Assembly (NCBI GenBank): GCA_009691915.1
Contig: SIAD01000001.1
Coordinates: 1-64,000, forward strand
DNA: 64,000 nucleotides
Source of the DNA: Phycisphaerales bacterium
GTDB taxonomy: Bacteria > Planctomycetota > Phycisphaerae > Phycisphaerales > SM1A02
Direction of reading: 5' to 3'
Positions 20,137 through 59,186 of the stretch are shown here, in pieces (position 1 is the first letter of the stretch; each line of letters begins with the position of its first letter). The position numbers were made by a program, and so were the translations under genes. Below the pieces are notes generated by a model. It did no database searches. It was not told the DNA's origin and saw only the letters and a program-made list of their open reading frames with translations.

Positions 20137-23100
20137 TCACTTCTTCCCACAGCACGCTTTGAACTTCTTGCCCGAGCCGCACGGACACGGTTCATTGCGG
20201 CCGACAGCCAAGCGTGTTCCTTCAGGCACCGAAGGCGTTCGAAGTTGACTCATCGCCGCCGCACCTGCCGCGACCGCCGCCGCTGCCACCCCCTGTGGAG
20301 CACCCGCGCGCTCGGCGATGGCGATGTCGAGGTCCTGCTCGGTTGCGGGGATTTGTGCGGCGATGGGTGTCGCAAGGGGGGCCACCGAAGAGTCGGTTGG
20401 GGATGCGGGAGCCTCCAAGCCTGCGGCAATTGCCTGTGTCGAAGTGGTCGTGACTGGGGGCGTCGCCCCTGGAGGCGGCCGCATCGGCTGCGGCGACAGC
20501 TTTCCCTTGAACACTAGATCTGTGACCCGTTCACTGACTCTCGAAAGCATTTCCGCAAAGTTGCGCGATGACTCCTTCTTGAACTCGATCCTCGGGTCCT
20601 TCTGGCTGAACGAGCGGAACGAGATCGAGTCTCTCGTCTGATCCATGGTGTGCAGGTGGTCCTTCCATGACTGGTCGAGGATCTGGAGGAGCACAAAGCG
20701 CTCGAATTGCTCAAGCTCCTCACGCATCACTCGGGGGAATCGTTGGTTGAGATACGCCTCGGGGTCGTCTCTGAGCAGAGTGCGCTCATCCGCAGCCGGG
20801 CGAAGGAACAGAGTGCGAAGAAGCCACTCTTCCAAGGCCGAAGCAAGCGCAGCCTTCGGATCCGACGGCGCCGGGGAGGCCTCCGCGACCTCGGTACGCA
20901 ACGAAGTCAGCAGTCGGGAGATGCGATCGGCGATGCGTGGCGCGTCCCAGCGGGAAGCTTCCTGGACGAGCAGGCGCCTGAGTTCCGCGGGGTCCGTCGC
21001 GGGGAGTGCGTTTGGCTGCCACTCCAACTCGTAGCGTCCTCGGGCCCATCCGCAGAACTGAGTCAGTGCCGCCTGGGGGTAGGTCTGAATGTTTGCGTTG
21101 GTGAACTCGATGGCGAAGTCGATCGGGTAGTGGATTTCCCGCTGGCGGTACGCGGCCCGGACTGCGGTCTGCAGCGTTGCCGTGGCGTCAGCGATTTCCC
21201 GTACCCCGTCGAGCGTCGCAGGGTCAAGCGGACGCCCAAGCATTCCACCCGCCCAATTGAGGAGGTCCTTGGCACCGTAGCCGGGTTCGAGGTACGGCTC
21301 GACGGGGAAGAGGTCGATCGCCTCAAACCGCGCCTGCGCTGCCGCCTCAATGCGGCGGATGACCCCCGTGCGCCCCTCGGAGTCGATGATCTCCGGTGTC
21401 ACAGTGGCACCGTACGAAGACTGCGCCCACGCGATGACACCATTTCGGTCCCAGTCGGACTCGTCACCATCTTCGGGCAGGTATTCGCCGATCGTGATGT
21501 TGATCTGAGCCGAGGCCTCTTCGACCGTATCGGTCGAGATCGTCTTCAGGATCTGCTCGCGGTCCTTGCCCTTGAATCGGTCGGCCTCGACCATCACGCC
21601 GAACGCTTCGAAGACCCACTGGGAGATGCATCCGGGCACATGCCCCGGAGAGAGATAGGTGTGCGCGGCATCGGCCACCGCATCGTCGATGTACCCAAGG
21701 ACAACCTCCTTGATGCCCTTGCCCTCAAGAATCGGCTGGCGCCGCCCGTAGAACGCCCGCCGCTGGACCTCCATCGGTTCGTCATACTCAAGGATCGTTT
21801 TGCGGATTTGGAAGTTCCGCTCCTCCACCTTGCGCTGGGCGCGCTCGACGGCGCGGCTGAGCATCGGCGCTTCGAGCGCATCTCCTTCCTTCATGCCCAT
21901 GGTGCTGAGCACATTGAGGGTCGTGCGTCCGGCGAACATCTTCATGAGATCGTCGTCGAGGGCGAGGTAGAAGCGCGAGTGGCCGCTGTCGCCTTGGCGA
22001 CCCGACCGCCCACGCAGCTGGTTGTCGATGCGGCGACTCTCGTGGCGTTCGGTTCCAACGACATGGAGGCCGCCGAGATCCTCGGTCGATTGGATGAACC
22101 GGAGGCGATGGACGCTCCAGCCGGCGCGGTCAAGCTCCGCTTCGATCTGAAGGTTGGATAGACCCTTGACCTTCTTCTCCGCGATGCCGCTCGCGTCCGA
22201 GACCCAGTGCTCGAGCAGCGCGCGCCGCACGGAGGCATCGTCCATCGAGTCAAGAGCTGCGCGATCCGTACCAAGAAAACGGGTGGCGAGATGGCGATGA
22301 ACCATCGCCATGCACTTCTCCTCGCCCAGGGCCGCGTCCGCCGCCTTGGGGGCGAGGTTTCGCCGTTTCCAGTGTTCGATGAGGTCTGTCGCCGATGTGC
22401 GCACGAGCTTGATGTCGGTTCCGCGGCCAGCCATGTTGGTTGCGATCATCACAGCGCCGAGTTGGCCCGCTCCCGCAATGATCTCTGCCTCCCGCTCGTG
22501 CTGTTTCGCGTTGAGCACTTCGTGCCTGATCCCGCTCTTCTCTGTCAGCAGCCGGCTGAGCATTTCGCTCTTCTCGACGCTTGTCGTGCCCACCAGCACC
22601 GGTGCCCCAGAGTCGTGGATTCGTGCGATTTCCTCGACGATTCGCTCCCACTTGTCCTTCTGGGAGATGAACACCAGGTCCTGCTGGTCGACTCGGATGG
22701 TCGCCACATTGGTTGGAATCGATACGACCGTCAGGCGGTAGATCTCGAAAAACTCCGTCGCCTCGGTGTCCGCGGTGCCGGTCATGCCAGCGAGGCGCTT
22801 ATACAGCTTGTAGAAGTTCTGAATGGTGATCGTCGCCATCGTCTGCGTCTCTTCCTTGATCCGCACCGCCTCCTTCGCCTCCACTGCCTGGTGGAGCCCG
22901 TCCGACCACTGTCGACCGACCATCTTGCGACCGGTGTTCTGGTCGACGATGACGACACCCATCTGGCCGTCGTCGTCGGGCGCAATGACATAGTCGCGGT
23001 CTCGCTGATAGACGGTGTGAGCGCGCACCGATTGTTCCAACAGATGGGGGAGGTCCATGTTCTCCCCGACATAGAACGATCCGATCTTCGCCTCCTTCTG

Positions 23101-24342
23101 TGACTCCTCGATGCCATCATGGGTAAGGGTCGCCCGCTTCTTGTCCATTTCCAACTCGAAGTACTGGGTGAACTTGTCGCGCTCGCGTTCAAGGGAGGGG
23201 AGTTTGCGGCGCGCCTCCTCGAGGCGCTGCTTGATGGCGGGAACTGCCGACTTTTCACGGGCGTTGCGGATGTCTCCTTCGGCACCGGCGATGGCCGCCC
23301 GACACTGCTGGAACCGATCGTCACCGGCTTGCCACTCCCTTTGGCGCCCGACAAGGTGGCGTGCAAGCCGATCGGCCAGTTCGTAGCGTGGCTGGCGGTT
23401 GTGCGCGGGTCCGGAGATGATCAACGGGGTCCTCGCCTCATCGATCAGCGTCGAGTCGACCTCGTCGACGATGGCGTAGTCCCGGCGCTTCTGGACCTGA
23501 TCCTGCGCGCGCAGCTTCATGTTGTCGCGGAGGTAGTCGAACCCGAATTCGCTAGTGGTTCCGTAGACGACATCGCACAGGTACGCGTTCACTTTGTCCG
23601 CGTGCGGCTGCATATGCATGGGATGGATGCATCCCACTCGGAGGCCGAGTGCGCGGTGGAACGGAAAGGTCCAGTCACGGTCGCGCTGCACGAGATAGTC
23701 GTTGACGGTCACGACATGAACCTGCTTGTTGTCGCAGGCGGCGAGGTAGCAGGCCAGCGGGGCCACGATGGTCTTGCCTTCGCCGGTCTTCATTTCCGCG
23801 ATGCGCCCCTCGCTGAGGACGATTCCGCCGATGAGCTGGACATCGAATGGGCGCGCGCGGAAGGGGGGCTTGCTCTGAGGAAGCAGCTCACGCACCGCGG
23901 CGTACACGGACACTGGAATGTCGACGAACTGCCAGGCTTCAATCGGACCGCGGCACCCCAGAAGTTCTCCCACTGGTTCGCGAGGGCTGGTCGCATCCAT
24001 GACCGCCTTCGTCTCGAGATACGCGGCCCGCGCGGCTTCAGGAAGCTCGTTCGGATCGAACCCCAGCGCAGGGTTGAAGGCGTTGCGAATCCCCACCCCA
24101 CGATCCATCGCCTCCCGCGCCACCGCGAAGATCTCGGGGATCATGTCATAGGGGCGTTCGCCATCAGCGATCCGCTTTCGGAACACCGGAGTCATCGCCA
24201 TGAGCTCGGGATCGGTCATGGCGGCGCACTTCGCCTCGAGGTCGTTGACCTTGTCAACGATTCGCAGGTAGCGACGGACCATTCGCTGGTTGTGTGTACC
24301 GAAGGTCTTGCGGACGAAAAAGTCGAGGACGGGAATGGGCAT
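20137..24342 (-). CDS. secA: Preprotein translocase ATPase SecA, enlarged
   Basis: The motor that drives proteins through SecYEG. About 1,400 residues from the ATG of MPIPVLDFFVRKTFG, against about 900 in E. coli. Conserved parts: Walker A EMKTGEGKT, YGTTSEFGFDYLRDNM, DEVDSTLIDEARTPLIISG, LAGMTGTADTEA, VLVGTTSVEKSE, NMAGRGTDIKL, GLHVVGTERHESRRIDNQLR and GRSGRQGD. The C-terminus is a SEC-C zinc motif (EPCPCGSGKKFKACCG). Extra sequence includes about 80 residues before FDVQLIGG, a coiled coil after the first ATPase motifs, and about 85 residues between GTDIKL and GLHVVG. A GTG 45 bases upstream is another possible start. Confidence 0.96.
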   Translation of the reverse strand: MPIPVLDFFVRKTFGTHNQRMVRRYLRIVDKVNDLEAKCAAMTDPELMAMTPVFRKRIADGERPYDMIPEIFAVAREAMDRGVGIRNAFNPALGFDPNELPEAARAAYLETKAVMDATSPREPVGELLGCRGPIEAWQFVDIPVSVYAAVRELLPQSKPPFRARPFDVQLIGGIVLSEGRIAEMKTGEGKTIVAPLACYLAACDNKQVHVVTVNDYLVQRDRDWTFPFHRALGLRVGCIHPMHMQPHADKVNAYLCDVVYGTTSEFGFDYLRDNMKLRAQDQVQKRRDYAIVDEVDSTLIDEARTPLIISGPAHNRQPRYELADRLARHLVGRQREWQAGDDRFQQCRAAIAGAEGDIRNAREKSAVPAIKQRLEEARRKLPSLERERDKFTQYFELEMDKKRATLTHDGIEESQKEAKIGSFYVGENMDLPHLLEQSVRAHTVYQRDRDYVIAPDDDGQMGVVIVDQNTGRKMVGRQWSDGLHQAVEAKEAVRIKEETQTMATITIQNFYKLYKRLAGMTGTADTEATEFFEIYRLTVVSIPTNVATIRVDQQDLVFISQKDKWERIVEEIARIHDSGAPVLVGTTSVEKSEMLSRLLTEKSGIRHEVLNAKQHEREAEIIAGAGQLGAVMIATNMAGRGTDIKLVRTSATDLIEHWKRRNLAPKAADAALGEEKCMAMVHRHLATRFLGTDRAALDSMDDASVRRALLEHWVSDASGIAEKKVKGLSNLQIEAELDRAGWSVHRLRFIQSTEDLGGLHVVGTERHESRRIDNQLRGRSGRQGDSGHSRFYLALDDDLMKMFAGRTTLNVLSTMGMKEGDALEAPMLSRAVERAQRKVEERNFQIRKTILEYDEPMEVQRRAFYGRRQPILEGKGIKEVVLGYIDDAVADAAHTYLSPGHVPGCISQWVFEAFGVMVEADRFKGKDREQILKTISTDTVEEASAQINITIGEYLPEDGDESDWDRNGVIAWAQSSYGATVTPEIIDSEGRTGVIRRIEAAAQARFEAIDLFPVEPYLEPGYGAKDLLNWAGGMLGRPLDPATLDGVREIADATATLQTAVRAAYRQREIHYPIDFAIEFTNANIQTYPQAALTQFCGWARGRYELEWQPNALPATDPAELRRLLVQEASRWDAPRIADRISRLLTSLRTEVAEASPAPSDPKAALASALEEWLLRTLFLRPAADERTLLRDDPEAYLNQRFPRVMREELEQFERFVLLQILDQSWKDHLHTMDQTRDSISFRSFSQKDPRIEFKKESSRNFAEMLSRVSERVTDLVFKGKLSPQPMRPPPGATPPVTTTSTQAIAAGLEAPASPTDSSVAPLATPIAAQIPATEQDLDIAIAERAGAPQGVAAAAVAAGAAAMSQLRTPSVPEGTRLAVGRNEPCPCGSGKKFKACCGKK

Positions 24343-24444
24343 TGGTTGCTTTCCGAGGAGGCGCGGCTCCTCAGGGGAGGCCGTCACGCGGGATTGTCTG
24401 CTGGGATCGACGCACTATCAACGCGCCCGAAGGGCGCGCGCGAT

Positions 24445-24919: not shown

Positions 24920-25729
24920 ATGCCCGATCGGATCACGCGCGCGCTGGCGATGCTTCGCCATCGGCGACAGAAGGGGCTGATTCCGTTCATCACTGGGGGA
25001 TTCCCGACGCTTTCGGTCACCACCGACGCCATCGTCGCTATCGCCGAGGCCGGGGCGACGGCCATCGAAGTTGGCATCCCATTCAGTGATCCGATCGCCG
25101 ATGGACCGGTCATCGCCCAGAGCATGCACCACGCACTCGTGGCAGGGGTCGACACGGCGGCCGTTCTCGACGCAGTGCGCGCAGCGAGAAAGCGAACCGA
25201 AGTTCCCATGGCGGCAATGGTGAGCTCGTCGATCGTGTGGAGGGTCGGTCCGGACAACTTCCTTGCGAGCATCGCCGCAGCGGGCTTTGACGGTCTCGTG
25301 GTCCCGGACATCGACCTTGCCCAGGCACCGAGCCTCGCCGCACTCTGTGATGCGCGCTCTCTGGCCCTCGGACTTCTGGTGGCACAGACCACGCCGGCAG
25401 CGCGGATCGCGGAGATCACTCGGTCCTGCCGCGGATTCGTGTACCTCCTCGCACGGGCTGGACTCACGGGCGAACGCGACGGACTTCCTGAGATTCCTGA
25501 GATCGCCGAGGCGGTGGCGCGAGTTCGCCAGTGCACTCAACTGCCCGTCGCCGCTGGCTTCGGACTCGCCTCGGCCGCGCAGGTCGCGGCTGTGGCGGCC
25601 CATGCCGACGCAGCCATCGTGGGAAGCGCGTATGTGCGGCGGATGGCTCTCGCGCGGCCGGTTGAGGAAGCGGCCGAGTTCACACGCCTGCTCGTCGGTG
25701 TGCTGGCTGAACTCAATACCGGCGCATGA
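24920..25729 (+). CDS. trpA: Tryptophan synthase alpha chain
   Basis: Splits indole-3-glycerol phosphate to indole and glyceraldehyde 3-phosphate. 269 residues, family length. The catalytic Glu and Asp are in AIEVGIPFSDPIADGP; GLIPFITGGFPT, GFDGLVVPDID and VAAGFGLASAAQV are standard TIM-barrel segments. VPDID replaces the usual VPDLP. No trpB or other trp gene is adjacent. Its last 17 bases overlap the convergent lexA stop region. Confidence 0.94.
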   Translation: MPDRITRALAMLRHRRQKGLIPFITGGFPTLSVTTDAIVAIAEAGATAIEVGIPFSDPIADGPVIAQSMHHALVAGVDTAAVLDAVRAARKRTEVPMAAMVSSSIVWRVGPDNFLASIAAAGFDGLVVPDIDLAQAPSLAALCDARSLALGLLVAQTTPAARIAEITRSCRGFVYLLARAGLTGERDGLPEIPEIAEAVARVRQCTQLPVAAGFGLASAAQVAAVAAHADAAIVGSAYVRRMALARPVEEAAEFTRLLVGVLAELNTGA

Positions 25730-26333
25730 CACCGATGACGACTCCCTGAATCGTGCACTCTGTCACGATGATCGGTTCAAATTCAGGATTCGCCGGTTGC
25801 AGGCGAATGGTGCCGTTCTTCTGAAGAAAGTAGGTCTTTAGAGTCGTCTCACCGTCGGCGAGAAGCGCGACGACCCGTTCGCCATTGCGCGCCGTTTGCC
25901 GTCTCTCCACAATCACATAGTCGCCGCTCAAGATCCCCTCGTCACGCATCGACTCTCCCTCGACCTGCAACGCAAACATGTCCCCGCGCCGCGCGGTCGT
26001 CCGACCGCCGAAGATCTCCTCCAGCCGGAGTTTCTCGTCCTGCGCACACTTCTCGATAGGCATCCCGGCGGCAATTCGCCCGAGCAGCGGGAGGACGAGT
26101 CCAGTTCCCTCATCGGGGCGGACGGCGTCCTCAACCTCCGACAAAGAGCGAGCCTTCTTCGGATTGCGCCTCAGTGCGCCCTTTTCGACGAGGGCTTCGA
26201 CATGCTCGAAGACGGTCACTTTGCTCACCTCGAGCGCGTCGGCGATCTCCTGCATCGTGGGCGAGTAGCCGTGCGCCACTCGAAACTTGCGTACATAATC
26301 GAAGATCCGCATTTGCTTGGGTGTCAGGTTCAT
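25713..26333 (-). CDS. lexA: LexA repressor
   Basis: SOS repressor, 206 residues from the ATG of MNLTPKQMRIFDYVRKF. Residues about 1-65 are the winged helix (HGYSPTMQEIADALEVSKVT, HVEALVEKGALRR). The Ala-Gly self-cleavage site is in LLGRIAAGMPI, the catalytic Ser in QVEGESMRDEGI and the Lys in TTLKTYFLQ. RecA filaments trigger cleavage at the Ala-Gly bond. The frame is open far upstream but without homology. Candidate operators lie at 26694-26725, about 360 bases upstream; a weaker GTTC-n6-GTTC sits at 26371-26384, near the start. Confidence 0.95.
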   Translation of the reverse strand: MNLTPKQMRIFDYVRKFRVAHGYSPTMQEIADALEVSKVTVFEHVEALVEKGALRRNPKKARSLSEVEDAVRPDEGTGLVLPLLGRIAAGMPIEKCAQDEKLRLEEIFGGRTTARRGDMFALQVEGESMRDEGILSGDYVIVERRQTARNGERVVALLADGETTLKTYFLQKNGTIRLQPANPEFEPIIVTECTIQGVVIGVMRRY

Positions 26334-26652
26334 AGTGTGAGTCGCTCCGTGGAAGTGTGAGTGGGTGGTTGTTCGATCTCGTTCTGGCTCTCTTGCGATG
26401 CGCCAGCGCGGCGGCAGGAGTGACCGCGCGGATGCCACGCGGCTCCTGCACGGTGTGCCCGACGAGGCGCGCTCCGATCCCGATGGCGCGTTCGATCCAG
26501 TCGATCGGTTCGGGGAAGTGCGGGCACGGGTCGGTTGAGGAGCCGGCGAGCAGGACGAGCGTTCCGCTGGAATCCGCAACGATCCGAGAGACGAAATCAC
26601 CTCCAGGACCGAGATGCACGAGCGGTTCGCAGGCTGTTGATCGGATGGTCAT
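26131..26652 (-). CDS. Possible SOS-linked ORF overlapping lexA (uncertain)
   Basis: A 173-residue frame that starts 42 bases downstream of the candidate operator and reads toward lexA. Its first about 75 residues look protein-like (FVSRIVADSSGTLVLLAGSS, EPIDWIERAIGIGARLVG) while the last about 67 lie inside lexA in another frame and have shadow composition (Arg/Ala/Gly/Ser-rich). It may be a real small gene that lost its stop or suffered a frameshift, or a long leader of lexA. No family recognised. Confidence 0.33.
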   Translation of the reverse strand: MTIRSTACEPLVHLGPGGDFVSRIVADSSGTLVLLAGSSTDPCPHFPEPIDWIERAIGIGARLVGHTVQEPRGIRAVTPAAALAHRKRARTRSNNHPLTLPRSDSHYEPDTQANADLRLCTQVSSGARLLAHDAGDRRRARGEQSDRLRACRSPRRKGRTEAQSEEGSLFVGG

Positions 26653-26693: not shown

Positions 26694-26709
26694 GTTCGGT
26701 GAATGTTAG
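26694..26709 (+). promoter_or_regulatory. Candidate LexA operator GTTCGGTGAATGTTAG
   Basis: The form is GTTC-n7-GTTA, close to the alphaproteobacterial LexA box GTTC-n7-GTTC. A near-identical 16-mer occurs in reverse orientation at 53544-53559, directly upstream of the SOS-type imuA-imuB-dnaE2 cassette; 13 of 16 positions are identical. It sits between the leftward lexA-side ORF and the rightward aminotransferase gene. Confidence 0.5.
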
Positions 26710-26725
26710 CCGTACAGGTGTACGG
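26710..26725. promoter_or_regulatory. Palindrome CCGTACAGGTGTACGG
   Basis: Two perfect 6-base arms CCGTAC/GTACGG around AGGT, abutting the GTTC-type motif. Size and symmetry suit a dimeric repressor such as LexA. I found no second copy upstream of the mutagenesis cassette, so its owner is unknown. Confidence 0.4.
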
Positions 26726-26764
26726 TGTCAAGCCGATTGGGGCAGTTCTCTACGATTGCTTCCA

Positions 26765-27952
26765 ATGTCCGACGCCTGTCTGCCGCACACCGCCCCTGCG
26801 AGCCTTGGAACGCGTGTTCGGGAAGCGTTTCAGCTCGACTGGACCTACCGCTTTCTGAATCACGGGTCATTTGGAGCCGTACCGAGAATCGTTGAGGAGG
26901 CAGCGTGCCAGTGGAGACAGCGGCTCGAAGCGCGGCCGATCGCGATGGTCGGGAGGGAGATGGCTGGGCTCCTTGGCGAAGTCAGGGGGCGTATCGGGGG
27001 CTATCTCGGATGCGCTCCGGAGCGAATCGGTCTCGTGACCAATGCGACCTCCGGGGTCGGCTCAGTCCTTGCGAGCATCCAGTGGGCACCCGGGGATCGG
27101 ATTCTCCTCACAAATCACGGCTACAACGCGGTGCGGCAGGCGGTTCATCGGGCCAGCGAGCGATGGGGAGTCGAGTGTTCGATCACCGACATCCCGCTCT
27201 CCATCGGTGGCGACGGCGATGTCGCGGATGCGATCATCCGCGCGATCGACCCACGAACCCGGCTGGTCATCGTCGACCATGTCACCAGTCCGACGGCACT
27301 AGTTTTTCCCGTGGCCGCGATCGCCGCCGAGTGTCGTCGGCGGGGGATCCTGTGCCTAGTCGACGGCGCGCACGCCCCGGGGATGCTGCCTCTTCAGATC
27401 GACGCTATCGACGCCGACTGGTACACGGGGAACCTGCACAAATGGGTCTGCGCTCCCAAGGGATCGGGCGTGCTGGTGGCGTCTGAGCGGACCAGCGTGT
27501 GGACCCATCCTGAGACCACGAGCCACTTCCATGGCAGCGGATTCGTTGATGAGTTTGCTTGGCAGGGGACGCGGGATTTCGCCAGCTGGCTGGCGATTCC
27601 TGCAGCAATCGACTTTGTCGAAGGAGTGGTTCCCGGTGGTGCGATGAGCCACAATCGAGCACTCGCGCTGTGGGCGTCAGCGCGCATGGCGGACGCATTC
27701 GGTTCAGAGGTCATCGGACCGGGTGATGGCTCGATGACGGGTTCGATGGCGAGCATTCCACTGCCCCGTGTGCTGGAGGACCGTTGGCCCTCGGCTCAGG
27801 AGTTTCAGGCCAGACTGTACGACCAACACAGGATCGAAGTCCCGATCATCGAATTCGGCGGACGGTGGCATGTGCGCATTTCAGCGCAGGTCTACAACCT
27901 AGCGGAGGACTACTTGGCGCTGGAGGCGGCGGTGTTGGCGGAAGCGAGCTGA
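26765..27952 (+). CDS. Class V aminotransferase (isopenicillin N epimerase-like)
   Basis: A 395-residue pyridoxal-phosphate enzyme from the ATG of MSDACLPHT. Landmarks: FLNHGSFGAVPRIVEE, which is the isopenicillin N epimerase-like opening; GLVTNATSGVGSVL cofactor loop; CLVDGAHAPGMLPL with the cofactor-binding Asp; and the Schiff-base lysine in YTGNLHKWVCAPKG. Later FHGSGFVDEFAWQGTRDF and WHVRISAQVYN match the family. The substrate is unknown; desulfurase, epimerase and lyase activities all occur in this fold. The 3' end overlaps the convergent gene by 43 bases. Confidence 0.85.
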   Translation: MSDACLPHTAPASLGTRVREAFQLDWTYRFLNHGSFGAVPRIVEEAACQWRQRLEARPIAMVGREMAGLLGEVRGRIGGYLGCAPERIGLVTNATSGVGSVLASIQWAPGDRILLTNHGYNAVRQAVHRASERWGVECSITDIPLSIGGDGDVADAIIRAIDPRTRLVIVDHVTSPTALVFPVAAIAAECRRRGILCLVDGAHAPGMLPLQIDAIDADWYTGNLHKWVCAPKGSGVLVASERTSVWTHPETTSHFHGSGFVDEFAWQGTRDFASWLAIPAAIDFVEGVVPGGAMSHNRALALWASARMADAFGSEVIGPGDGSMTGSMASIPLPRVLEDRWPSAQEFQARLYDQHRIEVPIIEFGGRWHVRISAQVYNLAEDYLALEAAVLAEAS

Positions 27953-53516: not shown

Positions 53517-53559
53517 TTGCAAAAATTGCCTCGTGCGAATACCCTAACAAAGACCGAAC
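53517..53559 (+). promoter_or_regulatory. Candidate SOS promoter and operator of the imu cassette
   Basis: TTGCAA (53517-53522) and TACCCT (53540-53545), 17 bases apart, form a plausible -35/-10 pair. The sequence 53544-53559, read on the minus strand as GTTCGGTCTTTGTTAG, overlaps the -10 end and expected start and matches the lexA-side motif at 26694-26709. Only 9 bases separate it from the imuA ATG, so the mRNA leader would be very short. Confidence 0.5.
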
Positions 53560-53568
53560 ACACTGACC

Positions 53569-54351
53569 ATGCGCTGTATTCCAGACGAACTCAGAGAGCG
53601 TGTTGCCGCGCTTGCGGCTCCGCATGCGGAGATGCGTGTGCGTGGTGTCGGCGGCACTGCGGATGGATCCATTGCACACCTCGGTCTCGGTGCCGTTCAT
53701 GAATGGCTTGCAGTCGATGATGGCGAAACGCCAATTCCACGCGACCTCTGGCTCGTGCCGCATGGATTTCTCGTTGCGCTTGTCTGGGAGATGTTCCTGG
53801 CGCACGCTGCGCATCCGCCGTCGCCTCTAGGTGTGTCACATGCGCCAGGTGCGCCAGACACTCGTGTTGCATGGATCGGTCGGCGTGTCTGGCCCGCCCC
53901 GCGCGCGATGCTCGACGAGTCTGGTTCGCGCGCGCTCCTAGCGCGGTCGCTCTTCATCGATGCGCGCCCACAGACTTGCGAACGAAAGCATCGTCTCTGG
54001 GCCGCTGAACAGGCGCTCGCCTGCGATGGGGTGTCGGCAGTCATCTGGGATGCAGAGGGGTTCGACATGGTCGCGAGTCGGCGTACACAACTGGCCGCCG
54101 CGCGATCGCGCGATCGCCCTGCGGTGCTCGCGCTCGCCGTGCGTCCGTGGCGCGAACGCGCGACGCTGACGGCCGCAGCTTCGCGGTGGGCGGTCCATCC
54201 CTGTGCAGGCGTGTGCGATGGCGGGAACGCCCACGGGATGTCAGGCGATGCACCAGCATGGCGCGCGGAACTCCTGCGCGGGCGCGGCGCGGCACTGGCT
54301 GGATCTGCGCACATGGTGCGCCGCGCGACATGGTCGTGGAGTGCAGGATGA
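53569..54351 (+). CDS. imuA: ImuA-like SOS mutagenesis protein
   Basis: 260 residues. LGLGAVHEWL near residue 37 and RLWAAEQALACDGVSAVIWD near residue 143 match the ImuA family, distant RecA/SulA relatives without full ATPase function; the Walker A is not recognisable. In other bacteria ImuA joins ImuB and DnaE2 in a damage-induced translesion complex. Identification leans partly on cassette order. The stop overlaps imuB (ATGA). Confidence 0.82.
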   Translation: MRCIPDELRERVAALAAPHAEMRVRGVGGTADGSIAHLGLGAVHEWLAVDDGETPIPRDLWLVPHGFLVALVWEMFLAHAAHPPSPLGVSHAPGAPDTRVAWIGRRVWPAPRAMLDESGSRALLARSLFIDARPQTCERKHRLWAAEQALACDGVSAVIWDAEGFDMVASRRTQLAAARSRDRPAVLALAVRPWRERATLTAAASRWAVHPCAGVCDGGNAHGMSGDAPAWRAELLRGRGAALAGSAHMVRRATWSWSAG

Positions 54352-55958
54352 ACGGCGGCATGCAAGGCATGCGATTCATGCGATGCACGCAATTCATGGC
54401 CATCTGTCTGCCTCGATGGAGCGCAGACTGTGCGCGGCGCGACGCGATCCGCGCCGGACGCCGCCTGCCTCAATCTGCGGCGACGCTCGGCAGCCTTGTC
54501 ATCATCATCATCCGCCTCGAGCGCGGGATGCGCATCGTTGCGGCATGCTGCCCGAACGCATCGCGCGCCGGAGTGCGTCCGGGACTCTCGCTCGTGCACG
54601 CCCGCGCCCTCTGCCCGGGGCCGAAGCTCGAGGTCGAGGAGCGCCCCGAACACGAGCGTGCGCTCCTTCAGGCGTGTGCGATCTGGTGCCAGCGGTACTC
54701 ACCGATCACCGCCATCGAGTCGACGCCAGATTCGACGCTAGGTTCGACGCTAGGTTCGACGCTAGGTTCGACGCTAGGTTCGACGCTAGGGCCGCCTGTG
54801 ATCGTCGTCGACATTTCAGGATGCCAGCGGATCTATCCATGCGATGCGACCCTGCGCGCACGCGTGGTTGACGAGCTGGCGCGGCTCGGTTTCGTCGCGC
54901 GCGTGGCGAGTGCGATGACCGCAGCGGGCGCGGTGGCCCTCGCCTGCGACGGCTCCCGCCGCGGCGACCCTAGGCAGACGAGAAGTGAATCCGCCGCGCT
55001 TGCCGCCTGCTCGCTGCGCGCTCTGCGCATCGCCCCCGAGGCTATCGACGCGCTCGCGCTCGTCAATGTTCACACGATCGGCGAGCTCGCAGCACTCCCG
55101 CGCGCCAGCGTTGTCTCGCGTTATGGCGAGAGGACGCTGCGCCGCCTGGGCGAAGCACTCGGCGAGGTCGCAGAGTTCATTGTCCCCATCCGCACGCTGC
55201 CCCCTCCCTCATGCGAGCGCGTTTTCGACGGGCCGGTCACCAATCTCGAGTCGATTCGTCTGGCGGTCGAGGGACTCGTCGAAGACCTCTGCGCGCAGCT
55301 CGACGAGCGCGACCGGGGCGGACGCGAGTTCGAACTGACCGCCATCTGCGCCGACGCGGAGTCGCAGGTCCATCGCTTGACACTTGGGTCGCCGAGCGCC
55401 CGCGCACGCCACATCGTCGCCATGCTCGCGCCACGCCTCGAACGCCTCCCGATGGGCATGGGCGTTGAGTCGATCCGTCTCGCGGTCCTGCGCATGGGTC
55501 GCCTCGGGCCCAGCGAAGGACTCTCCGAGTGGGCCGATACGGTGATCGCGCGTCTGGGCCCGGCCAGCGTCATGCGCGCCGGATTTGCCGAGAACCACCA
55601 CCCCGACCGTGCCGTGACGTGGCTCACGGTCGCGCGGTGCGGGCTCGTTCCGAGGAGAGTCTTGCGGCAGGCGTCCGCCCGCGGGATCTTGAACGCCCCC
55701 CGCGCCGTGTGTGCCTGGCGCCCCTCATCGATGATCGACGGCGCCGAGTGCGTAGTCGTCGACGCGCCGCATGCGTCGTCTATCCGCTGGCGATCGCGCG
55801 AGATAGCCATCGCTTCATGGAGCGGTCCGGAGCGGATCGCTTCGCCGTGGGATCGCGCCGCAAGCACCGACTACTGGCGTGTGTGCACGGCAACGGGGCG
55901 CTGGCTCTGGCTGCGCCGCCGCGGCGACGAGTGGTCGGTCGCGGGCATCTGGAGCTGA
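54348..55958 (+). CDS. imuB: ImuB, Y-family polymerase-like adaptor
   Basis: 536 residues from MNGGMQGMRFMRCTQ. Y-family features are degenerate: the first catalytic site is absent, as in ImuB generally; GLSLVHARALCPG, YSPITAIEST and VIVVDISGCQRIYP are recognisable; an HhH-like segment LALVNVHTIGELAALPRASV follows. ImuB links the cassette polymerase to the beta clamp. A (Ser-Thr-Leu-Gly)5 insertion from a 12-bp repeat sits at about residues 128-147, just before VIVVDISGC. A clamp-binding motif was not clearly seen. Confidence 0.9.
   Translation: MNGGMQGMRFMRCTQFMAICLPRWSADCARRDAIRAGRRLPQSAATLGSLVIIIIRLERGMRIVAACCPNASRAGVRPGLSLVHARALCPGPKLEVEERPEHERALLQACAIWCQRYSPITAIESTPDSTLGSTLGSTLGSTLGSTLGPPVIVVDISGCQRIYPCDATLRARVVDELARLGFVARVASAMTAAGAVALACDGSRRGDPRQTRSESAALAACSLRALRIAPEAIDALALVNVHTIGELAALPRASVVSRYGERTLRRLGEALGEVAEFIVPIRTLPPPSCERVFDGPVTNLESIRLAVEGLVEDLCAQLDERDRGGREFELTAICADAESQVHRLTLGSPSARARHIVAMLAPRLERLPMGMGVESIRLAVLRMGRLGPSEGLSEWADTVIARLGPASVMRAGFAENHHPDRAVTWLTVARCGLVPRRVLRQASARGILNAPRAVCAWRPSSMIDGAECVVVDAPHASSIRWRSREIAIASWSGPERIASPWDRAASTDYWRVCTATGRWLWLRRRGDEWSVAGIWS
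54731..54790. repeat. Five-copy 12-bp tandem repeat (TTCGACGCTAGG) in imuB
   Basis: Five perfect head-to-tail copies with a diverged one at 54719-54730. Each adds four residues (Ser-Thr-Leu-Gly) in frame, so copy-number change alters ImuB length without frameshift. Confidence 0.95.
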
Positions 55959-55961
55959 GCG

Positions 55962-58900
55962 GTGCCGATGACGCACGAACCGAACTCTCCCGCCTACGCA
56001 GAGCTCGATGCGATGAGCAATTTCTCCTTCCTCGAGGGTGGAAGCCATCCCGAGGAGATCGTTGAGCGCGCAGCGGATCTCGGTCTGACCGCGATCGGGT
56101 TGGCTGATCGGGGGACGATGTCGGGGATGGTCCGCGCCCATGGCGCGGCGAAGGAGCGGGGGATCCCACTCCTGGTCGGAGGGAGGCTGGATCTTCTTCT
56201 CGACCCATCCGGGCGTGTCGGCGCGAAGGACACGGAGTGTGACGCGCTCGACTCCATCGAAGTGATCGCCTACGCGACCGACCGCGCCTCCTATGGGAAC
56301 CTCTGTCGCGCGATCACCCAGGGGAGGATGCGCACCGAGGCGCACGACACCGATGGCATCGCCGAGCGCACCCAGTGGCATCTCCCGCTGCACGACTTCC
56401 TCGCGCTCTCGGGTGGTCTTGAACTTCTTGTCGTTGCTCCCCGGGGAGCGCGTCTCCTCTCGCCGAGGCTTGTCGAAGTGCTCACGGGGATCGCCCGACG
56501 CGCCCCCGGGCGTACCTGGCTCGTTGTCGCACGCGTGGGTGAGGCCGAGGAGAACCTGTTCATCGCCCAGTGCGGATGGCTCTCGCGCGAGTGTGGTGTC
56601 CCGCTGGTCGCCGCGCAGGGGGTCCGCTTCCACGATCCCGCGCGGCGCCGTCTCCATGATGTCCTGACCGCGATCCGCTGCGGAACAACTGTCGCTGCCG
56701 TCGGGTTCGCCGCACTTCCCAACGCCGAGCGCCATCTCCGCGATGGCACCGCTATGCACGCGCGATGGCGCGAATACCCCGAGGCACTCGCGCACACGCT
56801 GGAGATCGCTCGGCGCTGCTCGGGCTTCTCTCTGTCGCAGCTGCGCTACCGCTATCCGAGGGAGAGTGCCACCGAGGGGATCCCCGCTATCGCATCGCTG
56901 CGCCTTCGCGCGCTCGCAGGCGCCGCCGAGCGATATCCATCGGGGGTCCCCGATGGTGTCCGCGCGCAGCTCGAAGGTGAACTCGCCATCATCAAGGAAC
57001 TTGAGTATGAGCCATATTTCCTCACCGTCCACGACATCGTCCGCTTCGCGCGTTCCCGTGGAATTCTCTGTCAGGGGCGTGGCGCCGCTGCCAACAGCGT
57101 CGTGTGTTACTGCCTGGGCGTAACCGCGGTCGATCCCGCGCGGTTCAATCTTCTCTTCGAGCGGTTCGTCAGCCGAGAGCGGCAGGAGCCTCCCGACATC
57201 GACATCGACTTCGAGCATGAGCGGCGCGAAGAGGTAATCCAGTTCATCTACGAGCGGTACGGTCGCCACCGGGCGGCGATCTGCGCTGCAGTGATCTGCT
57301 TCCGCAGACGGCTGGCCGTGCGCGAAACGGCGAAGGCGCTCGGGTTCTCGCTGGACGCGGTCGACCGCCTAGCCCACGGTCTCTCGTCGCATCCCTGCGA
57401 CGACGAGGTGCGCGGTCTGGGCTTCGATCCCGCCAGTCCGGTGATGCGTGCTCTCCTCGAACTCTCCCAGGAGATTGAGGGATTTCCCCGCCACCTCTCG
57501 CAGCACACGGGAGGGTTCGTCGTCACCGAGGATCCGCTGTGCGAGATGGTGCCCATCCGCGATGCCTCGATGGATGGCCGCACGATGATCGAGTGGGACA
57601 AGGACGACATCGACGCGATCGGGATGCTGAAGATCGACATCCTCGCCCTCGGGATGCTCACCTGCATCCGCAAGGCGCTCGATCTGGCGGGCATGTCGGC
57701 TGTACCCGGCGGCGGGTCGCTGACCCGCGAACTCGCGCTGCACACGATTCCTGCGGAGGATCCGGCGACCTACGAGATGGTCTGCGCCGCCGACACGGTC
57801 GGGGTATTTCAGATCGAGAGCCGCGCGCAGATGGCGATGCTGCCGAGGCTTCGCCCGAAGAACTTCTACGACCTCGTCATCGAGGTGGCTCTCGTACGGC
57901 CAGGACCGATCCAGGGGGATATGGTCCATCCCTACCTGCGCCGCCGCGCGGGGGAGGAGGAGGTCGAGTACCCCAACGAGGCGGTGCGCCGGATCCTTGA
58001 ACGGACCCTAGGCATCCCGCTGTTCCAGGAGCAGGCGATGTCCGTGGCGATGGTCGCCGCCGGATTTTCGGCGGGGGAGGCGGATCAGTTGCGCCGCTCA
58101 ATCGCCTCATGGAAGCGCAGCGGCAAACTCGTCGAGTCCTTCCGCGAGCGGCTCGAACAGGGGATGCTCTCGCGCGGCTACTCGCTCACTTTCGCGCAAC
58201 AGGTCTTCCGGCAACTCCACGGCTTCGCCAGTTATGGCTTCCCCGAGAGTCACGCGGCGAGCTTCGCGCTTCTGGTGTACGCCTCCGCGTGGCTCAAGCG
58301 CCATCGTCCCGCCGCGTTCACGGCGGCTCTTCTCAACAGCCAGCCGATGGGCTTCTATGGTCCCTCGCAGTTGGTGCAGGATGCAACCCGGCACGGAGTG
58401 GAAGTGCGCGGCATCGATGTCAGTGCGAGCCGGTGGGACTGCACCCTGGAGGGGCCACCAGACGCCCTCGCGCTGCGTCTGGGCATGCGCATGGTGCGCG
58501 GACTCACCAAAGAGGACGCGCAGGCGATCGTCGCGGCGATGGTGCGTCGTGGTCGGTGCGACTCGGTCGAGGATCTGTGGCGCGAGAGTGGCGCATCGAT
58601 CGCGGGGATCCGTCGCCTTGCCTGCGCGGACGCGTTCCAGTCGATGGGTCTCAAGAGGCAGGGAGCGATCTGGCAGGCGCAGCGGCTTCGCAGTGTCGTG
58701 GTGCGCGGTCGTGTCGCGGAGGATGCGCCGCTGTTTACGGCACCCGGTCTCCCGGACACGACCGACCGGCTCCCGCCCATGAGCCACTGCGCGCAGGTCG
58801 AGGCGGACTACCACCACAACGGTCTTTCCCTCAAGGGTCATCCGATGGAGTTCGTCAGGCAGAGCCTTGCACGGCAGGGGATCGCCCGCTGCGGAGAGAT

Positions 58901-59186
58901 CGCCGACGATGGAGCATTCGTTCAGGGGGCGCGAACGGCGGTAGCGGGAATCGTCCTCCTGAGGCAGCGGCCATCGACGGCGAAGGGGATCGTCTTCATC
59001 ACGCTTGAGGACGAGTCGGGCACGGCCAACCTGATCGTGCGTCCGAAGGTGTGGGAGCGCAACCGGGCAGTCGGGCGAACCGCGTCAGCGCTTGTGGCCC
59101 ACGGCACCGTCCAGCGCCGACACGAGTCGACACATCTCATCGTGGGTCGCCTTGCGCGTCTTTCCCTCGCGGGGGCGGCGGGCTAG
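55962..59186 (+). CDS. dnaE2: Error-prone DNA polymerase III alpha-type subunit DnaE2
   Basis: 1,074 residues, C-family polymerase. N-terminal PHP domain opens AELDAMSNFSFLEGGSHPEE; the palm carries PDIDIDFEHERREEVIQF with catalytic Asp pair and IGMLKIDILALGML with the third; GRGAAANSVVCYCLGVT and FASYGFPESHAASFALLVY are typical of the family; an OB fold ends the protein (IVFITLEDESGTANLIV). The translesion polymerase of the imu cassette, distinct from replicative DnaE. The GTG at 55962 or ATG at 55968 could start it. Confidence 0.95.
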   Translation: MPMTHEPNSPAYAELDAMSNFSFLEGGSHPEEIVERAADLGLTAIGLADRGTMSGMVRAHGAAKERGIPLLVGGRLDLLLDPSGRVGAKDTECDALDSIEVIAYATDRASYGNLCRAITQGRMRTEAHDTDGIAERTQWHLPLHDFLALSGGLELLVVAPRGARLLSPRLVEVLTGIARRAPGRTWLVVARVGEAEENLFIAQCGWLSRECGVPLVAAQGVRFHDPARRRLHDVLTAIRCGTTVAAVGFAALPNAERHLRDGTAMHARWREYPEALAHTLEIARRCSGFSLSQLRYRYPRESATEGIPAIASLRLRALAGAAERYPSGVPDGVRAQLEGELAIIKELEYEPYFLTVHDIVRFARSRGILCQGRGAAANSVVCYCLGVTAVDPARFNLLFERFVSRERQEPPDIDIDFEHERREEVIQFIYERYGRHRAAICAAVICFRRRLAVRETAKALGFSLDAVDRLAHGLSSHPCDDEVRGLGFDPASPVMRALLELSQEIEGFPRHLSQHTGGFVVTEDPLCEMVPIRDASMDGRTMIEWDKDDIDAIGMLKIDILALGMLTCIRKALDLAGMSAVPGGGSLTRELALHTIPAEDPATYEMVCAADTVGVFQIESRAQMAMLPRLRPKNFYDLVIEVALVRPGPIQGDMVHPYLRRRAGEEEVEYPNEAVRRILERTLGIPLFQEQAMSVAMVAAGFSAGEADQLRRSIASWKRSGKLVESFRERLEQGMLSRGYSLTFAQQVFRQLHGFASYGFPESHAASFALLVYASAWLKRHRPAAFTAALLNSQPMGFYGPSQLVQDATRHGVEVRGIDVSASRWDCTLEGPPDALALRLGMRMVRGLTKEDAQAIVAAMVRRGRCDSVEDLWRESGASIAGIRRLACADAFQSMGLKRQGAIWQAQRLRSVVVRGRVAEDAPLFTAPGLPDTTDRLPPMSHCAQVEADYHHNGLSLKGHPMEFVRQSLARQGIARCGEIADDGAFVQGARTAVAGIVLLRQRPSTAKGIVFITLEDESGTANLIVRPKVWERNRAVGRTASALVAHGTVQRRHESTHLIVGRLARLSLAGAAG

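Follow-up and report, generated by a model that had tools for sequence, protein, structure and literature searches.

LexA is the SOS repressor, and proteins of its family undergo RecA-driven self-cleavage after DNA damage. The alphaproteobacterial LexA box reads GTTC-N7-GTTC (PMC8565304, PMC3323433), and the conserved core of alpha- and betaproteobacterial regulons includes lexA, recA and imuA-imuB-dnaE2, the last of which is reported to be persistently LexA-regulated where present (PMC3323433). The LexA motif of Balneolaeota, TTACACATATTTTWTACATA, has a direct-repeat structure; in the view of the authors who described it, operators built in this way seem to have arisen independently several times (PMC7739468). 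According to one study, planctomycete LexA fails to recognise the conventional E. coli motif (PMC3108266). The literature that we searched, which left most subscription papers outside its scope, contained no planctomycete LexA motif and no paper on a reading frame overlapping lexA.

Here, we analyse a window (the whole stretch of DNA studied, 64,000 nucleotides, corresponding to contig C18:1-64000 of a genome placed in Phycisphaerales from named relatives) that carries two related 16-mers, one before the lexA unit and one before imuA. Both are very likely LexA operator sites in this lineage, a reading for which there are no binding or expression data. A resemblance to the alphaproteobacterial box had been suggested by a first-pass annotation of the window; it holds in form, as a direct repeat with an 11-bp period, and not letter for letter.

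Two 16-mers beside lexA and imuA

The first-pass annotation had placed the two 16-mers on opposite strands and found them to agree at 13 of 16 positions; coordinates, strands and agreement were all confirmed. The two sites and the features around them are as follows.

26694-26709, plus strand (opposite to the lexA operon): LexA-box candidate 1, GTTCGGTGAATGTTAG, covering the putative -10 element of the operon promoter
26703-26731, minus strand: putative sigma-70-type promoter of the hidden ORF-lexA operon, read by eye, with TTGACA (26726-26731), a 17-bp spacer and TAACAT (26703-26708)
26131-26652, minus strand: hidden ORF, 173 aa, N-terminal LGPGGDF, C-terminus ...EEGSLFVGG, overlapping lexA
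26131-26333, minus strand: overlap of the hidden ORF with lexA, 203 nt, in frame +2 of the codons for the LexA DNA-binding domain
25713-26333, minus strand: lexA, 206 aa, TIGR00498 at 152.6 bits against a cut-off of 110.95, with PF00717 and PF01726
53544-53559, minus strand: LexA-box candidate 2, GTTCGGTCTTTGTTAG, 9 nt before the imuA ATG and overlapping a putative -10 element, TACCCT (53540-53545)
53569-54351, plus strand: imuA-like gene, a weak match to NF033429 (ImuA_translesion) at 28.5 bits, E 1.2e-6, below the cut-off of 150
54147-55958, plus strand: imuB-like Y-family polymerase homologue, matching IMS_C only; the longest ORF is given and the true start is uncertain
55962-59186, plus strand: dnaE2, error-prone DNA polymerase, PRK05672 at 1300.9 bits against a cut-off of 939

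At both sites the strand reading GTTCGG...GTTAG is the one opposite to the gene that it precedes. The earlier statement that the first site lies upstream of lexA held with a refinement: a distance of 360 bp separates the box from the start codon of LexA because a hidden ORF, unseen in that annotation, lies between them, and only 41 bp separate the box from the ATG of this ORF. The statement that the second site overlaps a plausible promoter of the cassette held as well, the overlap being with the putative -10 element before imuA. On the far side of the first box begins an aminotransferase class V gene (26765-27952, plus strand), so the box sits in a divergent promoter region. Elsewhere in the window, a SecA-like ORF (20137-24387, minus strand) encodes 1416 aa, exceeds the family models, is matched only piecewise and ends in a C-terminal SEC-C motif.

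The lexA product carries S24 peptidase and LexA DNA-binding domains. Alignment of LexA from 16 of 30 lexA loci showed A89-G90, Ser128 and Lys166, which we take to be residues with catalytic roles, to be invariant in all 16. Compared with LexA of E. coli, this group's profile has one residue fewer before what we take to be the recognition helix, and differs within that helix. Judged from sequence alone, these differences could be in keeping with a specificity other than that of E. coli LexA. The imuA-like gene has no Pfam match, and its position adjoining the box is conserved in relatives.

Within the window, the resemblance of the two words could be an accident. The consensus GTTCGGTNNNTGTTAG is expected 0.60 times (sd 0.79) at two or fewer mismatches, and 15 of 100 shuffled windows gave at least two such matches, so that on the window alone the agreement is not decisive against chance. 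Beyond the window, chance is all but excluded as an explanation by the genome-wide placement of the word, by recA as the sole one-mismatch site, and by the way the word is conserved across 80 named loci and 19 genomes of the genus.

Form and distribution of the site

The whole genome (2,272,911 bases in 34 contigs) contains the core GTTCGGTN4GTTAG exactly twice, at the two sites in the window, and a reversed control pattern not at all. The only site with one mismatch to GTTCGGTNNNTGTTAG genome-wide lies at C18:357223-357238, upstream of recA (PF00154, 442.5 bits). Allowing two or fewer mismatches yields 16 sites for the word and 50 for the reversed control; since the control exceeds the loose sites, their number alone is no evidence, and it is the placement of the best sites that counts. 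One of the 13 two-mismatch sites is directly upstream of an ORF at C32:23661-24449. No known repair gene appeared among the few ORFs run against Pfam near eight of the other 12. Outside the genus, the exact core was seen once each at G022:C11:200395 and G037:C18:507284 (loci L006 and L003).

Alignment of 29 of the 30 listed sites gave GT[TA]NGG, five bases, and then mostly GT[TA][AC]GG, which is a tandem direct repeat with an 11-bp period. The consensus of these 29 sites is TTGTTCGGTNTTTGTTAGG, and the operator form may be written GTTNGG-N5-GTTNGG. Position 4 of the half-site is C in 15 of 29 first halves and 9 of 29 second halves; at both window sites the second half reads GTTA, and a criterion of GTTC in both half-sites is unmet.

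A first rival reading holds that the shared word is merely a conserved core-promoter element, namely a -10 TAACAT with its downstream bases, and no operator at all. In its favour, TAACAT on the lexA side is found 17 bp after TTGACA, part of the site doubles as the -10 element there, and the base giving the last T of TAACNT is conserved. On the imuA side, however, CTAACA begins inside a different putative -10 element, TACCCT, and CTAACA...CC directly follows TACC at 13 of 15 imuA loci inspected (of 26), these promoters being read by eye. The word thus stands in a different phase to the promoter at lexA and at imuA, and is not merely a promoter element. Moreover, the second halves of the downstream recA sites and of most fourth-gene sites read GTACGG or GTTCGG and so contain no TAACA, and an element of this kind would recur at many genes, whereas the exact core occurs at only two places in the genome. 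We regard this rival as very unlikely. The lexA-side site of several other loci (L117-L153) has GATAG for GTTAG, a change that would improve the overlapping -10 (TATCNT).

Relatives were found among 61 genomes, with LexA in 57, RecA in 57 and imuA-like genes in 26. In addition, 80 named lexA loci were examined, about 52 of which have titles naming Phycisphaer-, with most of the others naming Planctomycetota and a few bearing odd labels. With a matrix built from 14 sites, the 1 kb preceding lexA contained a site of at least 10 bits at 46 of the 80 named loci, and 42 of these sites had one orientation, compared with one of 79 downstream stretches; a few of the named records are the same contigs as genomes that supplied seed sites for the matrix. 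With a refitted 20-bp motif at 8 bits or more, 64 of 80 loci had a site upstream, 62 of them in identical orientation, against two of 77 downstream controls. This motif was fitted on the same loci and its fit is circular; the orientation and the downstream control are not. The remaining downstream stretches (one for the matrix, three for the motif) were too short to use. No site of at least 8 bits with the 20-bp motif was present in 16 of the 80 named lexA loci.

The pattern GTWYGGTNNNTGTWMG had 34 matches in 19 genomes of the genus, 32 of which are at lexA, recA or imuA by coordinates; its reversed control gave 35 matches, whose placement is not given. A sequence model, R1, built from the 29 sites and applied at E<=1 to the same 19 genomes, placed 48 of its 49 matches at the lexA operon, recA, imuA or the fourth gene. 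Both GTWYGGTNNNTGTWMG and R1 were designed after part of the sites was known, so these tallies are partly circular. Single-site E-values of R1 are weak (0.02 to 0.97), and at most 150 candidates were scored per genome, so that further targets may have been missed. Exact core matches in G008 and G011 are directly upstream of imuA. Matches to GTWYGGTNNNTGTWMG at G000:C33:166121 and G015:C7:56006, and to R1 at G004:C166:5632, fall within long open frames and were taken as chance. One genus member (G001) has two lexA matches, on C12 and C29, 81 and 83% identical to that of the window and each preceded by the same box.

The recA and fourth-gene sites lie outside the window and were absent from the first-pass annotation. 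In the window genome, the recA one-mismatch site lies some 117 bp ahead of the ATG, and another repeat, GTTTGGAGTTTGTACG, stands between the two. The recA scan covered 30 loci (one unplaced) from the 57 genomes with RecA, plus that of the window genome. In all 12 genus loci scanned, the two best sites share an orientation and lie 46-48 bp from each other, the second, weaker site often being poor; outside the genus the loci are mixed, and some best sites have the opposite orientation.

The fourth gene is the repair-like ORF at C32:23661-24449 (G000; L073, L213), with the box just upstream. A site just upstream is found in all six genus genomes having the gene, weakly so in G018; homologues in G021 and G024 are without it, and those of G014 and G018 contain an internal stop. 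The gene product has no Pfam or NCBIfam match at E<=10 and no PADLOC match at E<=1. Among PHROGs it matches seven families at E<=1, the best being phrog_631 (6.5e-15, unknown function), and phrog_5429 (5e-7, 'DNA repair protein') is matched too. A D...ECK motif in this protein looks PD-(D/E)XK-like by eye.

A second rival reading assigns the word to a DNA-damage regulator other than LexA. It draws on three draft genomes of the genus without a lexA match (G004, G014 and G017, 95, 85 and 83% complete), two of which, G004 and G017, nevertheless keep the imuA box, and on the lack of binding data. Against it, the word precedes the lexA unit itself in most loci, as autoregulation predicts, and LexA is intact. 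This alternative, too, seems very unlikely to us.

Beyond the order, 24 Planctomycetota loci (L231-L254) gave 12 tandem-repeat matches in 10 loci, within 250 bp upstream of lexA, compared with two in their downstream control stretches. As the upstream DNA may be richer in T, this excess is only a lead. Several of these tandem GTT repeats, of 11-bp period, are located near -65 and are oriented the other way.

For the boxes themselves, position, near-exclusive placement, conserved orientation and conservation across genomes are shown, as are the intact family signatures of LexA. That LexA is the protein which binds them, and that binding amounts to repression, is inferred. Three features expected of an SOS box are present: the site is in the promoter region of the lexA unit, is common to imuA, recA and the repair-like gene, and is largely absent elsewhere, with the partial circularity noted above. 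The first-pass annotation had proposed that the motif is the SOS box of this lineage and that it should be enriched in relatives upstream of SOS genes. The enrichment check was run and passed for lexA, recA and imuA, and the proposal is supported, LexA binding remaining an inference.

A second reading frame across the start of lexA

The first operator probably drives a unit whose first gene is the hidden ORF, which shares about 200 nt with lexA in a different frame; this is a claim separate from the operator reading, with support of its own. Over 81 loci (the 80 named ones and the window), frame +2 runs open for 250 nt or more upstream of lexA in 80, compared with 21 and 22 for the other two frames. 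It remains open through lexA nt 190 in 79 of 81, where 16.5 would be expected with synonymous codons reshuffled per gene. It then meets a stop between lexA nt 194 and 221 in 78 of 81, at a single shared position in 55, and the stop codon is TGA in 75 of the 81 loci.

Synonymous diversity in lexA relative to expectation is 1.08 at codons 2-20, 0.68 at 21-40, 0.81 at 41-60 and 0.57 at 61-66, and returns to 0.91-0.97 beyond codon 66; the overlap differs from the rest of lexA with a permutation p of 0.0026 (76 genomes). The ratio of 1.08 means that there is no synonymous constraint in the first 20 codons. The strongest sign of the hidden ORF is the codon choice at LexA Ser63 and Leu64. Ser63 is TCT in 70 of 73 loci, compared with nine of 339 Ser codons after codon 70, and Leu64 is TTG or TTA in 70 of 74 loci, compared with 75 of 866 elsewhere. 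In frame +2, these rare codons spell Leu-Phe.

The Leu-Phe pair belongs to a tail, Q-x-x-L-F, that was recognised by script in 64 of 74 loci (26 QGSLF, 21 QGTLF); L088 has it as well, its Q having been cut off by the script, and nine of 74 lack it. Relatives mostly carry QG[STA]LF, and the window copy reads EGSLF, with E replacing Q. At the other end of the ORF, 67 of 76 loci have the motif xGPGGx[FY] in frame +2 in the 1 kb preceding lexA, compared with one and none in frames 0 and 1. A regular-expression count for the hidden ORF gave 66 of 80, including at least one false match (L120). The first Gly codon of the motif is used almost evenly (GGC 18, GGA 18, GGT 17, GGG 16), and the other two Gly codons are more skewed. 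The near-duplicates L091, L092, L094, L122 and L143 were left out of the synonymous-diversity, tail, Ser63 and GPGG counts and kept in the counts of lexA sites and of open frames and stops; L101 and L116 were left out of the Ser63 and tail counts as the KARSL anchor was not found in them.

Five further loci of the same order all have the GPGG motif in frame +2 and the open frame. Four end near +200, three with QGTLF and one with QGSLF; L229 ends at 224 without such a tail. Among the 24 Planctomycetota loci outside the order, none has the GPGG motif upstream of lexA, and only two (L237 and L245) have frame +2 open for 250 nt upstream, neither ending near +200. The aligned Ser, where recognised outside the order (16 of 24 loci), is TCT in one of 13, and no Q-x-x-L-F is seen there.

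A rival explanation is that frame +2 is kept open by a constraint at the nucleotide level, such as an RNA or DNA element within lexA, and that no protein is made. No proteomic evidence speaks against this, the predicted model of the protein is mostly of low confidence, lexA codons 2-20 are synonymously unconstrained, and nine of 74 loci have no Q-x-x-L-F tail. On the other side, the changes that persist in the tail (aligned for 32 of the 80 named loci and the window) are conservative in frame +2 (S/T/A, G/S, V/I), with L-F and the stop kept; the GPGG motif upstream of lexA is conserved while its codons vary; and the arrangement is missing in all 24 loci outside the order. We therefore consider the nucleotide-level explanation unlikely and retain the hidden ORF as the preferred reading.

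No match for the hidden ORF was found in Pfam or NCBIfam (E<=10), PADLOC (E<=1) or PHROGs. An AlphaFold model has a mean pLDDT of 61.6 and a pTM of 0.31, and only blocks of residues 11-40 average above 80. This low-confidence prediction is compatible with a protein that may be mostly disordered, with a small ordered N-terminus. Its tail can be compared with the sliding-clamp-binding consensus QL[S/D]LF, more generally QxxLF (PMC12309361), which it resembles in having Q-x-x-L-F close to the C-terminus; it differs in that position 2 is usually G, not L, and in that the window copy has E at position 1. A clamp-binding function for the hidden protein is inferred from this tail, without binding data. 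The clamp-peptide pattern Q..[LMI][FWL] is absent from imuA and imuB; dnaE2 has two internal instances, neither ending in LF.

The putative operator among known systems

Within the operator reading, the regulon detected in this genome is small, comprising recA, imuA-imuB-dnaE2, the repair-like gene at C32:23661-24449 and, by autoregulation, the hidden ORF-lexA operon itself; there are no expression data. LexA bound to the tandem repeat over the -10/+1 region would block RNA polymerase and so close the promoters of the hidden ORF-lexA operon, recA and imuA-imuB-dnaE2. Upon DNA damage, self-cleavage of LexA stimulated by RecA would release it from these operators, and error-prone synthesis through ImuA-ImuB-DnaE2 would follow. 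The hidden protein, made from the same transcript as lexA, may act at the clamp, where it would slow replication or help polymerase exchange. Alternatively, it may be a division inhibitor.

Returning to the clamp reading, a bolder proposal may be formulated. The half of lexA encoding the DNA-binding domain would be dual-coding throughout the order, and the second product would be an SOS-controlled, clamp-tailed protein that acts at the replication fork as a brake or switch induced by damage, expressed from the same operator-controlled transcript and hard-wired to the repressor by the 200-nt overlap. Taken jointly, these elements fall a little short of what we would call probable.

With this finding, an order of Planctomycetota gains a LexA operator that can be put to the test, along with a small SOS regulon; if confirmed, the finding would add one more phylum with direct-repeat LexA operators. 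The hidden ORF, which is easily missed because it overlaps lexA, would be a long same-strand gene overlap that is linked to a master repressor and conserved throughout the order. Its tail suggests, by inference, a clamp-directed SOS function.

Small genes near lexA are familiar from other bacteria. The lexA neighbours sulA (pseudomonads) and yneA (Bacillus) encode a damage-induced inhibitor of cell division, and the hidden ORF would resemble them in being a small SOS gene with its expression driven from the promoter region of lexA. It differs from both in having no family match in four libraries, in overlapping lexA by about 200 nt, and in its tail resembling a clamp motif.

As for the operator, the LexA-binding motif of Verrucomicrobia (Erill 2016, PMC4951493) is comparable as a LexA operator from another PVC phylum. 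The Balneolaeota motif shares the direct-repeat arrangement with the Phycisphaerales box and is unrelated to it in sequence. For the alphaproteobacterial box, a plasmid search with LexA provided no comparison set, nearly all of the 60 listed of 3734 records being umuD. The published form of that box has in common with the Phycisphaerales site the direct repeat, the 11-bp period and the GTT half-sites. In contrast to it, the half-site in this order of the phylum Planctomycetota is extended to GTTNGG, with a fixed GG and a tolerant fourth base, and its two halves are often unlike (GTTCGG / GTTAGG).
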